From: Verrucomicrobiota bacterium
GTDB lineage: Bacteria > Verrucomicrobiota > Verrucomicrobiia > Limisphaerales > JACDHS01
Reading direction: 5' to 3'
NCBI GenBank assembly: GCA_013820875.1
Contig: JACDHS010000027.1
Location: forward strand, 1-44,899
DNA: 44,899 nucleotides
Position 1 is the stretch's first letter, and every line of letters begins with the position of its first letter. The notes beneath the pieces were generated by a model. That model was not told where the DNA came from and ran no database searches. It worked only from the letters and a program-made list of their open reading frames with translations. The translations under genes were made by a program, and so were the position numbers. Positions 9,203 through 43,108 of the stretch are shown piece by piece.

Positions 9203-9399
9203 GCGCACGACAGCCTGTCCAAGACCAATATTCGCCGTAAATCGCCTCACGTCAGCCTGACGTAGACCGATGTACGCCGTAAATCGCCTCACGTCAGCCT
9301 GACCTGGACCGATGTACGCCGTAAATCACCTCACGTCAGCCTGACGTGGACCGATGTACGGCGTAAAACGTCTCACGACAGCTTGTCGCGAGGCGTTTT
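9203..9399. repeat. 42-bp tandem repeat array B1 (about 5 units)
   Basis: Units start at 9203, 9245, 9287, 9329 and 9371, an exact 42-bp spacing. The unit core is GCCGTAAATCGCCTCACGTCA followed by GCCTGACGTAGACCGATGTAC, shown here in two halves. Each unit contains the palindrome ACGTCAG-C-CTGACGT. The last unit changes to AAAACGTCTC and closes a long hairpin (9365-9399). An array of the same family with 8 units lies at 42778-43108. Because 42 is a multiple of three, the frame upstream of hemB stays open through it as 14-residue repeats; this is not taken as coding. The rest of the 9095-9441 spacer holds nothing recognised. Confidence 0.9.
9365..9399 (-). terminator. Terminal hairpin of array B1, possible terminator
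   Basis: AAAACGTCTCACGACA pairs with TGTCGCGAGGCGTTTT with two G-T wobbles. On the minus strand the stem ends in TTTT, 43 nt after the stop of the metallo-hydrolase gene, so it could stop that transcript. Confidence 0.55.
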
Positions 9400-12849: not shown

Positions 12850-14055
12850 TTAAACCCCAACCGCCTTCACAACCTTCTGCGCGGCATCCGCCATCGTATC
12901 GCCGGTGATGAGGCTCAAGCCGGATTCAGCCAGCGTCTTCTTGCCGGCATCCACGTTGTTGCCTTCAAGGCGAACCACGAGCGGAAGCTTCAAGCCCGTT
13001 TCTTTCACCGCCGCAACGATCCCGGTGGCGATCACATCGCAATCCATGATACCGCCGAAAATGTTCACCAGGATGCCCTTCACACTTGGGTCGCTCAGGA
13101 TGATTTTGAAGGCGGCAGTCACCTGGTCTTTGCTGGCCCCACCCCCGACATCGAGGAAGTTAGCCGGGTTACCGCCGAAATGCTGGATGATATCCATGGT
13201 GGACATGGCGAGGCCCGCGCCATTTACGAGGCAGGCGATTGAACCATCGAGCTTGATGTAGTTCAAACCGTGCTTGCTCGCTTCAATTTCCAAAGGCGCT
13301 TCTTCCGCGAGATCGCGCATCTCCTGGATGTTCTTGTGACGGTAAAGAGCGTTGTCATCCATGCTGACTTTGGCGTCCACGGCGGAAAGCGTTTCTTTGC
13401 CATCACTGCCTACGATGATACAGAGCGGATTGATTTCCACCATGGCGGCATCGCATTCCCACCAGGTTTTATAAACGCCGAGCAACAATTTTGCAGCGGA
13501 ACCGATCAGATCACCTTTCAACCCGAGGGCGCCAGCAAGTTTGCGCGCCTGATACGGCATCATGCCGACAGCCGGATCAATGGTTTCTTTGACAATCTTC
13601 TCCGGGCTTTTTTCCGCCACTTCTTCGATGTCCACACCGCCTTCGGTGCTAACCATCATGATCGGACGGGACGAAGCACGATCAAGCAGCACCGCGCAGT
13701 AGAATTCTTTTTTGATTTCCGGTGCGCCAGCGACGAGCAGTTTGGAAACGAGGCGCCCTTCCGGGCCGGTTTGCTTTGTGACCAGCACATTGCCGAGCAT
13801 GGCCTTGGCTTTTTCGTAAACGTCATCAGCCGTTTTGCACAGCTTGACGCCGCCCTGGAACCCGCTTTTGAAAGTTCCTTTGCCGCGTCCACCGGCGTGG
13901 ATTTGCGATTTTACGACAACGAGCGTTTCACCTTTGGCAAAAAGGCCTTCCGCAATCTTTTTGGCAGCTTCAGGAGTATCACAGACTTCGCCCGGCGGCA
14001 CTGAGACGCCGTATTGAGCGAGGAGTTGTTTGGCTTGGTATTCGTGGATGTTCAT
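12850..14055 (-). CDS. sucC: Succinyl-CoA ligase, beta subunit
   Basis: A 401-residue ATP-grasp subunit of succinyl-CoA synthetase. It opens with the canonical [37 protein letters not shown] lies in the nucleotide-binding domain, and VEINPLCII and [18 protein letters not shown] mark the C-terminal domain. [16 protein letters not shown] matches the alpha-contacting region. The start codon overlaps the stop of the upstream four-helix-bundle gene as ATGA, so translation may be coupled to that inserted gene. Confidence 0.97.
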
Positions 14056-14492
14056 CTTTGTAAAGTTTCGGGTTTGATGTTTGAGGTTTGAGGTTGTGCG
14101 CCGCGTTTGAACTTGTTTCCGCGAATTGAGCTTTCACGCAAGTATTTCATGAATCCGGCAATCAAACGACTTACAGCCCGCGCCTCGTTGTATAATTTAT
14201 CGAAATCCTGTTGAGAAATGTAATCCTCGTCCAAGGCTACATACAGTTGATCACAGACTTCACCACAGGAGCCTTTTGCATGGCTCAAAAGCTGGATGAA
14301 TTCATTGTTTCCTTCCCGTTCGAAACCCTCCGCGATATTTGAAGTAACGGAGACTGCCGCCCGACGAATTTGATCCTTTAGTCCGTAATCTCTTGCAAAC
14401 TCGCCTCGTTTGGAATGTGCGTAAATTCCACGACGCAACTCACGGCCTTTTTTCCAAGCCTCAATATCTTCGAAACGGGTGATTGTAGCCAT
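14052..14492 (-). CDS. Four-helix-bundle protein (23S rRNA IVS-encoded family)
   Basis: A 146-residue protein. [21 protein letters not shown] at the start and [22 protein letters not shown] in the middle are hallmarks of the S23/IVS family, first known from insertions in 23S rRNA genes. It folds as a four-helix bundle; its function is unknown. The start at 14492 matches family members; an upstream ATG at 14516 adds 8 residues. The last about 20 residues are read from low-complexity sequence ([12 protein letters not shown]) that belongs to a flanking repeat. The gene sits between gltA and sucC inside 26-bp imperfect inverted repeats, and its stop overlaps the sucC start. Confidence 0.88.
14070..14095. 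repeat. Left arm of inverted repeat flanking the IVS-type gene
   Basis: GGGTTTGATGTTTGAGGTTT continues to 14095 and matches the reverse complement of 14509-14534 at 22 of 26 positions. It lies within the 3' coding end of the four-helix-bundle gene. Confidence 0.6.
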
Positions 14493-14508
14493 AGGGCGGG
14501 AAACCAAA

Positions 14509-14534
14509 AACTTCAAACCTCAAACTGGAAACCC
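14509..14534. repeat. Right arm of inverted repeat flanking the IVS-type gene
   Basis: AACTTCAAACCTCAAACTGG continues to 14534, complementary to 14070-14095. It lies between the gltA stop and the four-helix-bundle gene start. Transcribed across both genes, the two arms could pair and loop out the insert. Confidence 0.6.
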
Positions 14535-14536
14535 AA

Positions 14537-15664
14537 TTACCGCTCTTGTAACGGCGTGACCTTTAGCCCGACTGGCCCGATGTATTCGCTCTGCGGGCGG
14601 ATGAGGCGGTTATCGGAAAGCTGTTCAAGTATATGCGCTGTCCAACCGGAGGTGCGGGCAATCGCAAAAATCGGCGTGAACAGATCCGTCGGAATTCCAA
14701 GGGAGTAATAAACGGTCGCAGAATAGAAATCCACATTCGCATTCAGGTTCTTTTCCTTGAGCATGATTTCGGCAATCCGCTCGCTCATCTGGATCCACTT
14801 CGGATCACCGAGTTTTGCGCTCAGGATTTGCGCCATGCGCTTTAAGTGCGGTGCGCGAGGATCCAATACTTTGTAAACACGATGACCAATGCCCATGATC
14901 TTCTTCTTCTGGGCCAGGCAATCTGCAACGTAGGCATCCACTTTATCCAGCGAATCAATTTCCTTGAGCATCTTGATCACGCCTTCATTCGCGCCGCCAT
15001 GAAGAGGTCCCTTCAATGTGCCGATGGCGCTGGTGATGGCGGAATACATGTCGCTCAAAGTCGCAATCGTGACGCGCGCAGAAAACGTTGAGGCATTCAT
15101 GCCATGATCCGCATGCAGCACGTAGCACATATCCATTGTGCTTACCTTTTCCTCGGACGGCTTCTCGCCATCAATCATATAGAGGAAATTGGCTGCTTCT
15201 CCGAGGGTCGCGTCTGGATGAACCAATTCTTTGCCCTGACGCGCGCGATGAAAATACGCAGTGATGATCGGGATCTCCGCAATGAGCTTGATCGCCTTTT
15301 CGCGGTTTGCATCCATGCTGTCATCATCGGCATCAGGATCGTAACAACCCAGCGCGGAGATGCCGGTGCGAATCGCGTGCATCGGCGGGGTATCTTTCGG
15401 CAGCCCCTGGATCATGTTGATGACGCCTTGAGGCAGATCGCGATGGCCTGCCAGCACCGACTTCAGTTCCTGCAATTCCGTTTGGTTCGGCAGATGCCCA
15501 TAGTGCAGGAGGAAAACCACTTCTTCGTAAGAAACTTTGCCCGCCAGTTCGTTAATGTCGTAGCCGCAGTAGATCAATTGACCAATATCACCGCGGACGT
15601 CGCTCAGTGTTGTTTTTGCTGCAACAACACCTTCCAAACCTTTTGCTGCCGTAGAAGAACTCAT
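14537..15664 (-). CDS. gltA: Citrate synthase
   Basis: A 375-residue enzyme joining acetyl-CoA and oxaloacetate, the TCA entry step. The length and motifs fit the short dimeric (type I-like) bacterial forms rather than the longer hexameric GltA. Active-site regions are present: HADHGMNASTFSARV with a catalytic histidine, GPLHGGANEGVIKML, and GIGHRVYKVLDPRAPHLKRM with the second histidine. An aspartate lies in NANVDFYSATVYYSLGIP. It is the first gene of the minus-strand run leading to sucC and sucD. Confidence 0.96.
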   Translation of the reverse strand: MSSSTAAKGLEGVVAAKTTLSDVRGDIGQLIYCGYDINELAGKVSYEEVVFLLHYGHLPNQTELQELKSVLAGHRDLPQGVINMIQGLPKDTPPMHAIRTGISALGCYDPDADDDSMDANREKAIKLIAEIPIITAYFHRARQGKELVHPDATLGEAANFLYMIDGEKPSEEKVSTMDMCYVLHADHGMNASTFSARVTIATLSDMYSAITSAIGTLKGPLHGGANEGVIKMLKEIDSLDKVDAYVADCLAQKKKIMGIGHRVYKVLDPRAPHLKRMAQILSAKLGDPKWIQMSERIAEIMLKEKNLNANVDFYSATVYYSLGIPTDLFTPIFAIARTSGWTAHILEQLSDNRLIRPQSEYIGPVGLKVTPLQER

Positions 15665-15845: not shown

Positions 15846-16835
15846 ATGAGGTGGATTTCAGCGCTAATCGTTTTCTTCTTTGTCCTGACGACTGCATTGG
15901 CGCAACCCTCCCTTAAAAATGTTGAGCGAATCACTATTTCGGGAACCGAATACGTCAGAATCAAAGACTGGGCGCCGGCAGCGGGATTAACCGTGAGCTG
16001 GATCAAGCGAGACGAGCAACTGCTCATGACGAATCGCTGGTGCAAAATTGAGCTGAAAGTGAAATCGATCATGTCGCGATTCAACGGGCTTGACGTCCGG
16101 CTGTCACTCCCGGTGATTTCACGAGGCGGCGGCATTTACATTTCACGCATTGATCTGGATAACACTCTGCATCCCCTGCTCTTCCCGCCGAAGAACGCCG
16201 CGAACAAAAAAATCAATGTGATCTGCATCGATCCGGGCCACGGGGGGAAAGACACCGGTAAAATCGATAAACTGCACCATGAAAAAAGATATACCCTGCT
16301 TCTCGCTGAAGAAATTGCACAGTTGCTGAAACAACACGGGCTGAAAGTAATCTTCACACGCAGCCGGGATGAAACTCTCGGACTTCCCGAGCGCACGGCA
16401 ATTGCCAATCGCCATGGGGCTGATCTCTTTCTCAGCCTCCATTTCAATGCCGCCAGCAGCCGCTCGGTACGTGGCGCAGAAATTTATGCAATGACCCCGG
16501 CTGGAGTGGAGTCGAGCAATTCCGGCCCAGGCAAATCCGGTACTGGGAACTATACCGGGAACCAAAACAATGAAAAAAACATGTTACTCGCCTACAATGT
16601 TCAGCGCGCCATGTTACGCGGCACCGGACTCGAGGACCGCGGAATCAAACGAGCGCGTTTTGAAGTCTTGCGCTCTGCGAAGATGCCCGCTGTCCTGATC
16701 GAAGGCGGGTTTATGTCCAATCCAGACGAGGCCCGCAAAATCTACGATCCTGCTTTCCACAAAAAACTGGCCAAATCAATTGTAGATGGAGTTCTAGCCT
16801 ATCGGAACATCGTGGACGGCAACGCCGCCAGGTGA
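15846..16835 (+). CDS. N-acetylmuramoyl-L-alanine amidase (Amidase_3)
   Basis: A 329-residue exported peptidoglycan amidase. A signal peptide (residues 1-20) starts MRWISALIVFFFVLTTALAQ. Residues about 20-115 resemble a small N-terminal copper-amine-oxidase-like or AMIN-type wall-binding domain. The catalytic domain follows with zinc-site motifs CIDPGHGGKDTG, the glutamate of HHEKRYTLLLAEEIA, LFLSLHFNAA and VLIEGGFMSNPDEARKI. It should split septal peptidoglycan. It stands alone between a divergent gltA block and a PduO-type gene. Confidence 0.93.
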   Translation: MRWISALIVFFFVLTTALAQPSLKNVERITISGTEYVRIKDWAPAAGLTVSWIKRDEQLLMTNRWCKIELKVKSIMSRFNGLDVRLSLPVISRGGGIYISRIDLDNTLHPLLFPPKNAANKKINVICIDPGHGGKDTGKIDKLHHEKRYTLLLAEEIAQLLKQHGLKVIFTRSRDETLGLPERTAIANRHGADLFLSLHFNAASSRSVRGAEIYAMTPAGVESSNSGPGKSGTGNYTGNQNNEKNMLLAYNVQRAMLRGTGLEDRGIKRARFEVLRSAKMPAVLIEGGFMSNPDEARKIYDPAFHKKLAKSIVDGVLAYRNIVDGNAAR

Positions 16836-16929
16836 TTCTGGATTCTGGATTCTGGATTGAACGCTGGATACTGTTCCCTCCTGCCAACTAATCTTTGACC
16901 TCCAGCCAACCGTATCTACACTCGCGCGC

Positions 16930-18892: not shown

Positions 18893-19220
18893 CACTCGGT
18901 CGAACCTGCAGACACACCTTCCAACGTTGGAAGGTCACTCGGTCGAACCCGCAGACACACCTTCCAACGTTGGAAGGTCACTCGGTCGAACCCGCAGACA
19001 CACCTTCCAACGTCGGAAGGTCACTCGGTCGGACCCGCAGACACACCTTCCAACGTCGGAAGGTCACTCGGTCGGACCCGCAGACACACCTTCCAACGTC
19101 GGAAGGTCACTCGGTCGAACCCGCAGACACACCTTCCAACGTCAGAAGGCCACTCGGTCGAATCCGCGGACACACCTTCCAACGTCGGAAGGTCACTCGG
19201 TCGGACCTGCAGATATGCCT
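18893..19220. repeat. 43-bp tandem repeat array C (8 units)
   Basis: CACTCGGTCG recurs at 18893, 18936, 18979, 19022, 19065, 19108, 19151 and 19194, exactly 43 bp apart. Each unit includes CCTTCCAACGTTGGAAGG, an 18-bp perfect palindrome in the first two units and a one-pair mismatch (CGTCGG) in the later ones. The eighth unit decays after CAGATATGCC. All three frames stay open because 43 is not a multiple of three and the repeat lacks stops, giving three overlapping shadow frames; none is taken as real. Units are contiguous with no spacers, so this is not a CRISPR array. Confidence 0.95.
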
Positions 19221-33637: not shown

Positions 33638-33889
33638 CGGGTGCAGGTGGGCAAGTGGGTAAGTGGACAAGGACTCGCCGCCAAGAGAGAACGTTTATGG
33701 TTCACCCGCTAAATGAAAGAAAAAGTGCGTCCTTTTCAGTCATAAACGCCTTCTTTTACGTTTTTTTGCAGCATTCCAAATGCGGTTTTTTTAAGGAAAG
33801 GCTGGCCCTTGTTTTCCACTAGCCCGAATGCCTCCTTGGTTGGGAACGTTTTGGGCACGAACAGCCCCGACGTCAGCTTTTTTCGCTCT

Positions 33890-34172
33890 CCAAAATAATT
33901 TGGAGCCCTAAAAAAGGAAATTCTGGCGCTCCAAAATAATTTGGAGCCCTGAAAAAGGAAATTCTAACGCTCCAAAATAATTTGGAGCCCTAAAAAAGGA
34001 AATTCTAGCGCTCCAAAATAGTTTGGAACTCTGAAAAAGGAAATTCTAGCGCTCCAAAATAATTTGGAGCCCTGAAAAAGGAAATTCTGGCGCTCCAAAA
34101 TAGTTTGGAGGACTAAAAAAGTAATTTTCTGTGCTCCAAAATAATTTGGAAGACCTCCATCGCGTCCATTTA
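33890..34172. repeat. 41-bp tandem repeat array A2 (7 units)
   Basis: CCAAAATA recurs at 33890, 33931, 33972, 34013, 34054, 34095 and 34136, exactly 41 bp apart, seven copies as in array A1. Most units contain GCTCCAAA-ATAA-TTTGGAGC, a perfect 8-bp stem. The last unit drifts toward the A1 sequence (GACTAAAAAAGTAATTTTC). The end flank GAAGACCTCCATCGCGTCC matches that of A1. A copy of the dispersed 49-bp repeat follows. Confidence 0.92.
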
Positions 34173-38596: not shown

Positions 38597-40243
38597 ATGA
38601 AAATTGCGGCACTCTGCGCTCGCTTGGATAAACTAAAGCTCAGTTCCTTTCTACGGAGTCGCTACCTCCTGGCAGTGATCGCCGGGATCATTTACACTGC
38701 GGCATTCCCGAAAATTGGCATTGCCGGGCTGGCATGGGTTGCGCCGGGGCTGATTTTGTTTGCGGCCCGCGGAACCAGCGGCAGACAAGCATTCAAAATC
38801 GGGTGGTTAGCAGGGTTTTCGGGCTGGATGGTGATGCTTTACTGGCTGCTCTTTATTCCGTATCGCTGGATGGGAATACCTTTTGGACCTGCCCTGGGCT
38901 GGGTGGTGCTCAGTGCCTTCCTGGGACTCTATACTGGAATCTGGGTTTTGCTTTGCCAGAGAATTCAAAGTTTAAGGTTCAATGTTCAAGGTTCCACCTG
39001 GTTGCAGCGCGCCTCCTGGGCTTTGCTGTGCGCGATTCTCTGGGTGACCATGGAAATGATCCAGGCACGATTCCTTTCAGGTTTTCCATGGATGCTGCTG
39101 GGAACTTCACAACATAAAATGACGCCGTTGATTCAGATTGCCTCGGTCACGGGAGTTTATGGTGTGGGATTTGTGATCGTCTGGTTTTCCGTTTCGTTGT
39201 TGAACGCAATCAATGTGCTGATCAATAAACCCACCTCGTACCGCAGTTTGATGGCGGAAGTTTTCTTGCCGCTGCTCGTTGTCGTTTCTTTGGTTACGTG
39301 GGGATTTTCGCGAATCACGCGATCGATCACTGCAGACGGTTCTGTCCCACGGACAATCCGTATCGCACTCGTTCAACCCAGCATCCCGCAGGAAGTTATT
39401 TGGGATGAGGGCGCCATCCCGGAGCGGTTCGAACAATTAATGCGCGTCTCGGAAGCGGCATTGATAGAAAAACCGGACCTGCTCGTCTGGCCGGAAGCAG
39501 CGATGCCTGGGTTTTCTGTCGAACATTTCACCGCGATCACCAACATGATCGTCCAAAATAAAGTTTGGATGATCCTGGGCGCGGATGATGCCGAGAGGAA
39601 ATTGGAAGGAGGCCTCGATGACCTCGATTTTTTCAATGCCAGCTTCCTGTTCAACCCGGAAGGAGATTACGTGGCAAGCTATCGGAAACTGCGCCTCGTG
39701 ATGTTTGGCGAGTATGTCCCGTTCACACGATGGTTGCCATTCCTGAGATGGTTTACACCAGTGCAAGGCGGCTTCACCCCCGGCAAAGGTCCAGTGCAAT
39801 TCCAGATGAGCGAACTCGGCGCGCAAACCACGGTTTTGATCTGTTTCGAAGATGTGTTTCCGCATCACACACGTCGTTATGTGGAGGGTGATAGCGATTT
39901 TCTCCTGAACCTCACGAACGATGGTTGGTTCGGCCGCAGTGCCGCACAATGGCAGCATGCAATGACCGCTTTGTTTCGCGCCGTTGAGAACGGCACCCCA
40001 CTGGTCCGATGTACGAACAATGGTTTGACCTGTTGGATTGACGAGTTCGGGCGGCTCCGTGAGTTCCTCGGCCAGAAAACTGGAGATGTTTATTCAGCAG
40101 GTTATTTGATCTGCAAAGTACCAGCGGGAAAAAAATATGAGCGAACCTTTTACAATCGTCATGGTGATTGGTTTGGCTGGGCCTGTGTCGCAACTGGATT
40201 GCTCACGTTCACACCGCTTCTCGTGCGGCGCCGGAAGCCGTAG
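38597..40243 (+). CDS. lnt: Apolipoprotein N-acyltransferase
   Basis: A 548-residue inner-membrane enzyme that adds the third acyl chain to lipoproteins. About seven transmembrane spans fill residues 20-240 and the terminus (about 525-540). The periplasmic nitrilase domain has the catalytic triad Glu300 (VWPEAAMPGF), Lys364 (SYRKLRLVMFGEYVP) and Cys416 (LICFEDVFP). NDGWFGRSAAQWQH and VRCTNNGLTCWID are typical. It indicates an outer membrane lipoprotein pathway. It is convergent with the cyclase gene, with only 16 nt between stops. Confidence 0.96.
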   Translation: MKIAALCARLDKLKLSSFLRSRYLLAVIAGIIYTAAFPKIGIAGLAWVAPGLILFAARGTSGRQAFKIGWLAGFSGWMVMLYWLLFIPYRWMGIPFGPALGWVVLSAFLGLYTGIWVLLCQRIQSLRFNVQGSTWLQRASWALLCAILWVTMEMIQARFLSGFPWMLLGTSQHKMTPLIQIASVTGVYGVGFVIVWFSVSLLNAINVLINKPTSYRSLMAEVFLPLLVVVSLVTWGFSRITRSITADGSVPRTIRIALVQPSIPQEVIWDEGAIPERFEQLMRVSEAALIEKPDLLVWPEAAMPGFSVEHFTAITNMIVQNKVWMILGADDAERKLEGGLDDLDFFNASFLFNPEGDYVASYRKLRLVMFGEYVPFTRWLPFLRWFTPVQGGFTPGKGPVQFQMSELGAQTTVLICFEDVFPHHTRRYVEGDSDFLLNLTNDGWFGRSAAQWQHAMTALFRAVENGTPLVRCTNNGLTCWIDEFGRLREFLGQKTGDVYSAGYLICKVPAGKKYERTFYNRHGDWFGWACVATGLLTFTPLLVRRRKP

Positions 40244-42548: not shown

Positions 42549-42777
42549 TTTCCAAAATGCAAAATCAAACCGTAGATGCCGCTTGTAGCATATACCGGCC
42601 CAATTTAAGAGTAAAAAGGATTGCCGTAGAACTGCAGACGAGCCATCTCCGATATTATTGCATTGTTGCGACTGGAAGAAAGGTTGGAGAAACGCAGAAA
42701 TTGTCGGATTTCAGTTCGGTCTCACCACTTGCGATGAACCATTGGAGGTAAGAACGAGCAAATTGCCGATGTTCCCC

Positions 42778-43108
42778 GTAAAACGTCTCTCGACAGCCTG
42801 TCGAAGACCGATGTATGCCGTAAATCGTCTCACGTCAGCCTGACGTAGCCCGATGTACGCCGTAAATCGCCTCACGTCAGCCTGACGTAGCCCGATGTAC
42901 GCCGTAAATCGCCTCACGTCAGCCTGACGTAGCCCGATGTACGCCGTAAATCACCTCACGTCAGCCTGACGTAGCCCGATGTACGCCGTAAATCGCCTCA
43001 CGTCAGCCTGACGTAGCCCGATGTACGCCGTAAATCGCCTCACGACAGCCTGTCGTAGCCCGATGTACGCCGTAAAACGCCTCACGTCAGCCTGTTGTGA
43101 GGCGTTTT
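42778..43108. repeat. 42-bp tandem repeat array B2 (8 units)
   Basis: Units start at 42785, 42827, 42869, 42911, 42953, 42995, 43037 and 43079, all 42 bp apart. The core matches array B1 (GCCGTAAATCGCCTCACGTC), with AGCCTGACGTAGCCCGATGT in most units. The palindrome ACGTCAG-C-CTGACGT is present in the inner units. In units with CGACAGCCTGTCG both arms have changed together, keeping the pairing. The array begins and ends with GTAAAACG; the last unit closes the hairpin 43074-43108 (AAAACGCCTCAC paired with GTGAGGCGTTTT). The rest of 42549-43196 holds no recognised gene. Confidence 0.92.

Follow-up and report, generated by a model that had tools for sequence, protein, structure and literature searches.

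An S23-family gene between gltA and sucC boxed by inverted heptad arrays, a layout usual for S23 genes

The S23 gene that separates gltA from sucC in a Verrucomicrobiota bacterium of the order Limisphaerales is boxed by mutually inverted arrays of a 7-nt unit. Most of the S23 genes examined are boxed by inverted arms in this way, and both the wording and the length of the repeat unit follow the S23 protein clade, also between non-syntenic loci of different genomes. On balance, we think it probable that the gene and its cognate inverted arrays form a free-standing cassette that works like a REP/RAYT unit, of which the intervening sequences (IVSs) of rRNA would be a special case. The S23 family, rRNA IVSs and the heptamers of the Coxiella IVS were already known, IVSs for over 25 years (PMC4990558; this and the other papers cited are drawn on through excerpts). 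Searches of open-licence PubMed Central papers turned up neither boxed free-standing S23 genes nor repeat units matched to protein clades.

The window, meaning the whole stretch of 44,899 nt that was analysed (contig JACDHS010000027.1), carries gltA, the S23 gene and sucC one after another on the minus strand. The features of the locus are as follows.

14537..15664, minus strand: gltA, citrate synthase (PF00285), a neighbour outside the cassette
14509..14534, no strand assigned: inverted heptad arm on the gltA side, 5' of the S23 gene
14052..14492, minus strand: S23 / 23S-rRNA-intervening-sequence-protein gene (PF05635, TIGR02436), 146 aa, coordinates including the stop codon
14070..14095, no strand assigned: inverted heptad arm on the sucC side, 3' of the S23 gene and inside its 3' coding end
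14052..14055, minus strand: ATGA overlap of the S23 stop with the sucC start
12850..14055, minus strand: sucC, succinyl-CoA ligase beta subunit (PF08442 and PF00549), a neighbour

The S23 gene starts with ATG at 14492 and stops at 14054-14052. Its product is matched by PF05635 (E 2.5e-33, 114.9 bits, cut-off 33.8) and by TIGR02436 (E 6.5e-31, 106.8 bits, cut-off 24), and an AlphaFold2 model predicts a four-helix bundle (mean pLDDT 89) whose best match in the PDB is 2GSC, from Xanthomonas. With profile scores above the curated cut-offs and a predicted four-helix bundle, the protein is a member of the S23 / 23S_rRNA_IVP family, and the agreement of profiles and model bears out the type of gene that a first-pass annotation had proposed here. 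A Xanthomonas member of the family forms pentamers. PF05635 was the sole match in a Pfam search of the protein, which returned no Y1 (HUH tyrosine) transposase or other transposase family, and we know of no catalytic domain in the S23 family. An Rfam search around the window gave nothing beyond one sub-threshold match. The ATGA stop/start overlap, also described in the first pass, is present in the window and is not general, since by reading of the sequences the S23 frame stops earlier in the two other genomes with an S23 gene at this site.

The two arms are 26 nt long, lie 413 nt apart and are complementary at 22 of 26 positions (85%). Each is a short tandem array of a 7-nt unit, the one inverted relative to the other; at 14071-14095, TRF reports 3.6 copies of GGTTTGA with period 7. 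The flank-to-flank inverted score of 16.0 was matched by none of 5000 dinucleotide-preserving shuffles and equalled at none of 2095 other window positions of identical geometry, which confirms the claimed bounding of the gene by arms. The placement of the left arm within the 3' coding end of the S23 gene also stood, and this arm encodes the C-terminal tail of the protein or a portion of it. Other tandem repeats occur elsewhere in the window. Three short arrays of 7-nt (GATTCTG; TTCAAGG) and 8-nt units, at 16834-16858, 38964-38994 and 33639-33671, have no inverted partner and no S23 gene. Longer repeats have units of 41 bp (229-520 and 33888-34150, which may be one family), 42 bp (9206-9382 and 42766-43094, which look like one family) and 43 bp (18893-19213).

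Comparison with relatives identifies the gene as an insertion into an otherwise adjacent pair, as a check of the gltA-sucC spacing had been meant to establish. Among 30 sucC loci of the order, gltA lies just upstream in 23. The spacer is bare (29-120 nt) in 17 of these 23, including the site in genome G021, whose sucC is 92% identical to that of the window. It is 371-384 nt long with other content in three, and is filled by an S23 gene in the remaining three (the window's own genome, one genome of the same family and one of another family). The 371-384-nt spacers (L154, L156 and L173, in G027, G030 and G028) appear by eye to hold a small opposite-strand gene, alike in all three. Identity to the window's protein is 61-69% for the S23 products of the other two genomes, against 79-91% for sucC. 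In the tree, the two gltA-sucC S23 genes that have a full row are joined in a single starred branch (100/96); the third is represented by two overlapping matches in different frames and looks frameshifted in its assembly. Arm wording differs between the three loci, being of GTTTGAG type in the window, GTTCAAA type in the same-family genome and GTTTGGG type in the third, and the arms still match within each locus.

To assess how general the boxed layout is, the upstream flank of each S23 gene was locally aligned with the reverse complement of its downstream flank. The 39 genomes of the order hold at least about 150 PF05635 matches; 135 were taken into the flank test, and removal of 6 without enough flank left 129 loci. 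The threshold was set at 15.5, where a null of flanks taken from mismatched loci has its 99th percentile; inverted arms were found at 90 of these 129 loci among the matches listed, and 39 fell below; the median score was 18, compared with 8.5 in the mismatched-locus null. Among control genes, the threshold was reached by 2 of 262 in genomes with S23 and by none of 280 in genomes without it (2/542 in total), and both passes were longer repeats with no heptad structure. A broad set from a scan of named genomes yielded 80 S23 loci, 79 of them usable, from Planctomycetota, Bacteroidota, proteobacteria, Acidobacteria, Chloroflexota, Clostridia and others. In this set, a score of 17.5, the 99th percentile in its own null, was reached by 42/79 loci and missed by 37/79. 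Of 21 annotated S23 plasmid records, 8 were scored, with the 15.5 threshold borrowed from the order set: 7/8 reached it and the remaining one scored 15.0, the hosts being Nostoc, Calothrix, Stanieria, Geminocystis, Pseudanabaena and Riemerella. The best period was 7 in 56/90 and 51/54 loci, 8 in 23/90 and 2/54, and 6 in 6/90 and 0/54. The IVS-like layout claimed in the first pass is thus both real and general, and the Coxiella 23S IVS has itself been reported with heptamers beside the same gene (PMC4990558).

Two other accounts of where S23 genes reside were rejected. None of the 80 broad loci overlapped an rRNA family at the Rfam gathering score. A search of 50,697 phage records gave no S23 match, against 21 plasmid records, and phage was dropped as the vehicle of S23. 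Two loci carry in-frame stop codons within the S23 match (L223 2001-2312, Paceibacterota; L246 2001-2318, SAR324). A plasmid of Pseudanabaena galeata carries a boxed S23 gene (L354 1492-1851) between cas6 and cas4, which may be why PF05635 appears among the CRISPR-adaptation associations given in PMC10910872.

Repeat units are mostly 7 nt long (range 6-8 nt) and differ from locus to locus. The S23 loci of G005 and G036 share ATCGAA hexamers, those of G001 and G025 share a TTGGCTA unit, GTTGNATN-like octamers recur at S23 loci in three genomes, and the TGGAGTGA unit is found in the lpd-linked S23 clade and in one relative at another site. A Mantel test on pairs from different genomes with no detected synteny gave a rho of 0.18 in the order set, and 0 of 1000 permutations were as high. 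Under a stricter synteny filter, arms were shared in 27/59 pairs of close proteins versus 13/3320 distant pairs (0/500 permutations as high), and keeping a single G005 copy changed this little (24/56 close-protein pairs). In the broad set, arms were shared in 8/53 close-protein pairs compared with 48/1403 and 2/114 less close pairs; the protein-arm correlation there is weak (rho 0.11, 4/500 permutations as high). An orthologue comparison on whole flanks mixed in coding sequence and was replaced by one on the arms alone, in which the within-locus median was 0.68 and that of orthologue arms 0.40; this is suggestive only, the within-locus arms having been picked by the same alignment.

The S23 protein is maintained under purifying selection, because pN/pS lies at 0.08-0.25 in 11 of 12 pairs; dS is mostly saturated, and a recent S23 pair in G005 gives 0.50. 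Same-site S23 genes cluster on the tree, with 12 label changes against 22.3 under shuffled labels, which indicates that most same-site insertions are old. For the most part, then, S23 loci are inherited in place; in the RND and tat site groups, clustering was no better than chance.

Heptad arrays also occur away from S23 genes. In the window's own genome, 18 hits of GTTTGAGGTTTGA fall at 6 loci, and the 38 other genomes have 0-3 hits each; genome pattern counts take overlapping hits, and loci are therefore fewer than hits. S23 is absent from five of the GTTTGAGGTTTGA loci, which consist of hairpins or paired arrays. At one of the five (L001, about 1480-1580, contig C5), the palindromic heptad sequence is inserted in frame into leuS, with the synthetase-core sequences YWM and VDLYVGG on either side. 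The suggestion that other IVS-type genes of the genome might carry the same arms failed, as the three other S23 genes over the cut-off lack GTTTGAGGTTTGA and each has a unit of its own. The worry that the arms are common filler was allayed in part: the 13-mer does occur at five other places of the genome without S23, but inverted flanking arms at this score are found in just 2/542 other genes.

In the 39 genomes, the density of heptads (RGTN4) rises with that of S23 genes (rho 0.41, p 0.01, phylogeny not corrected for), and the median density is 4.9 per Mb in 31 S23-bearing versus 0.66 in 8 S23-free genomes (p 0.003, phylogeny again uncorrected). A reversed-pattern control is poor for tandem arrays and was left out as a null. 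TGCGGAR arrays are commonest in the S23-free genome G022 (42 hits) and also numerous in S23-free G009; thus, S23 is not required for arrays to exist today. An inverted pair was present at 1 of 5 TGCGGAR loci examined in G022, and the dispersed arrays examined in G001, G025 and G022 are mostly single and unpaired. On these grounds, the idea that S23 strictly mobilises solo arrays in trans was rejected as a general account. Arrays in S23-free genomes, the existence of unpaired arrays and the inheritance of most S23 loci in place are what would be expected if S23 were an ordinary host gene and the heptads neutral slippage products at gene borders, paired inversely by chance or replication error. 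Such an origin is nonetheless very unlikely in our estimation, since the pairing is specific to S23 genes (90/129 versus 2/542) and the wording tracks the protein between unrelated loci.

Orientation relative to neighbouring genes bears on whether the arms act in RNA. Among arm-bearing S23 genes with co-directional neighbours, 64 lie in sense (++) and 9 in antisense (--) under naive gene calling; the same count for control genes gave 156 ++ versus 54 --, and the S23 sense bias stands moderately above this. A predominance of sense insertions would suit an RNA processing element, in which the arms pair in the mRNA and loop out the S23 gene, RNase III cuts, and the cassette survives by its removal from transcripts. 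The arms are indeed paired in the minimum-free-energy fold, and RNase III cuts the Coxiella IVS at the heptamers (PMC4990558). We consider this explanation unlikely, however: the excess of sense orientation over controls is moderate, the neighbours are not co-directional at 33 of 106 scored arm-bearing loci, and the fold betters its shuffles mildly (z-score -1.72; 6 of 100 do equally well). Arm mismatches number 118 of G.U type versus 167 of A.C type (two broad loci with scores over 100 left out of the count); this pattern is opposite to that expected, so that selection for an RNA stem on sense RNA is not supported and was rejected on this test. The first-pass suggestion of a mobile or RNA-loop-forming cassette therefore divides, the cassette holding up through multi-copy dispersal in G005 and arms that follow the protein, and the RNA loop losing ground on the G.U count and the fold z-score.

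Recent dispersal of multiple copies is seen in one genome, G005. An 80-nt stretch from the left end of its element is matched at 10 places in G005, nearly over its full length at 8, and two complete copies (647 and 704 bp) bear, beyond the arms, inverted ends about 30 bp in length. At the gltA-sucC site no target-site duplication was obvious, by reading, against the empty sites, and repeated outer ends were seen in G005 only. In L318 of G005 (contig C48, 1106-1492), the first part of an S23 frame is fused to another frame, which we take to be a C-terminal portion of a RAYT transposase. That the repeated element extends past the arms with outer ends of its own counts against the cassette model, and another mover may act there. 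The arrays of S23-free G022, the mostly unpaired dispersed arrays, the S23 loci below the arm threshold and the weak correlation in the broad set weigh against the model too. DNA transposition by the transposase of another element, with S23 as cargo or a MITE-like passenger, would accommodate the left ends at many loci, the two complete copies with ends outside the arms and the copy fused to a RAYT-like frame (a label given by reading). We rate it as quite unlikely, given that this evidence is confined to G005, that Y1 transposases do not vary in density with the heptads (rho 0.22, p 0.18, 39 genomes), and that no constant end sequence common to the S23 clades was seen. RAYT genes are moreover boxed by REP palindromes, not heptads (12/20 boxed in a similar test), and RAYT was rejected as the heptad mobiliser.

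The protein and its array as a matched pair are preferred over an RNA stem or a foreign transposase because hallmarks of the RAYT system recur. As reported for REP/RAYT units (PMC2817692), two copies of its own repeat, inverted to one another, enclose the gene, repeat copies are dispersed in the genome, and the gene evolves faster than its neighbours, as the S23 and sucC identities illustrate. Repeats also co-evolve with the gene, those of fixed-site orthologues changing yet remaining paired (PMC2817692). S23 differs in being a predicted four-helix bundle with no transposase match, in having tandem 6-8-nt units rather than short hairpins as repeats, and in a gene-repeat correlation with exceptions, such as TGCGGAR in G022.

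Likeness to 23S rRNA IVSs (Coxiella, Leptospira) lies in the protein family, in an S23 ORF between complementary arms and in tandem heptamers of period 7, reported in Coxiella as GACAGAT repeats beside the S23 gene in strain-dependent copy number (PMC4990558). The window's S23 gene, by contrast, lies in a protein operon and encodes a protein under purifying selection, whereas that of Coxiella has been described as decaying (PMC4990558). Because its location is not in rRNA, the window element is not classed as an rRNA IVS, and is instead allied to the IVS/S23 kind. Dispersed heptamers in print, GGGAATC in Xanthomonas (PMC4692102) and TAACTGA in Beggiatoaceae (PMC4679880), likewise form 7-nt tandem arrays, often as inverted pairs in Xanthomonas. 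The excerpts of these papers draw no link to S23, lacking the term 'four helix' in PMC4692102 and both 'S23' and 'four helix' in PMC4679880.

A further resemblance is structural. The S23 model aligns with Avd (4DWL; TM 0.82 normalised to target length, rmsd 2.0, 8% identity), matches the Avd chains of the DGR RNP structures 8UB7/8UBE, and would fit the PF05635-Avd homology stated in PMC10053308. The window's S23 gene differs from a diversity-generating retroelement in lacking an adjacent reverse transcriptase and template/variable repeats, the immediate neighbours being gltA and sucC. Avd works with a reverse transcriptase, and an Avd-like fold would make help from S23 to a polymerase or reverse transcriptase conceivable.

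In the cassette we propose, the S23 protein and the wording of its own array would be a matched pair, inherited as one unit, that mostly stays put and is now and then copied to a new site. The protein would bind its array and help to copy or maintain it. Retention mainly in the sense orientation would allow expression from host promoters, and 23S rRNA IVSs would represent this cassette after landing in rRNA. More tentatively, S23 genes and their cognate heptad arrays may constitute a distinct, bacteria-wide gene-plus-repeat class, in which a non-transposase, Avd-like ring protein specifically recognises, and either propagates or maintains, 6-8-nt tandem arrays, with rRNA IVSs as stray copies.

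S23 genes inside operons or CRISPR loci, such as the boxed gene between cas6 and cas4, may be passengers. An excess of 7-nt repeats in bacterial genomes has been noted in print without an agreed mechanism, as far as the excerpts of PMC4692102 and PMC4679880 go. The clade-matched pairing of S23 and heptads makes both this excess and the function of S23 testable and, if true, the S23-array class would explain a good part of the bacterial heptamer excess.
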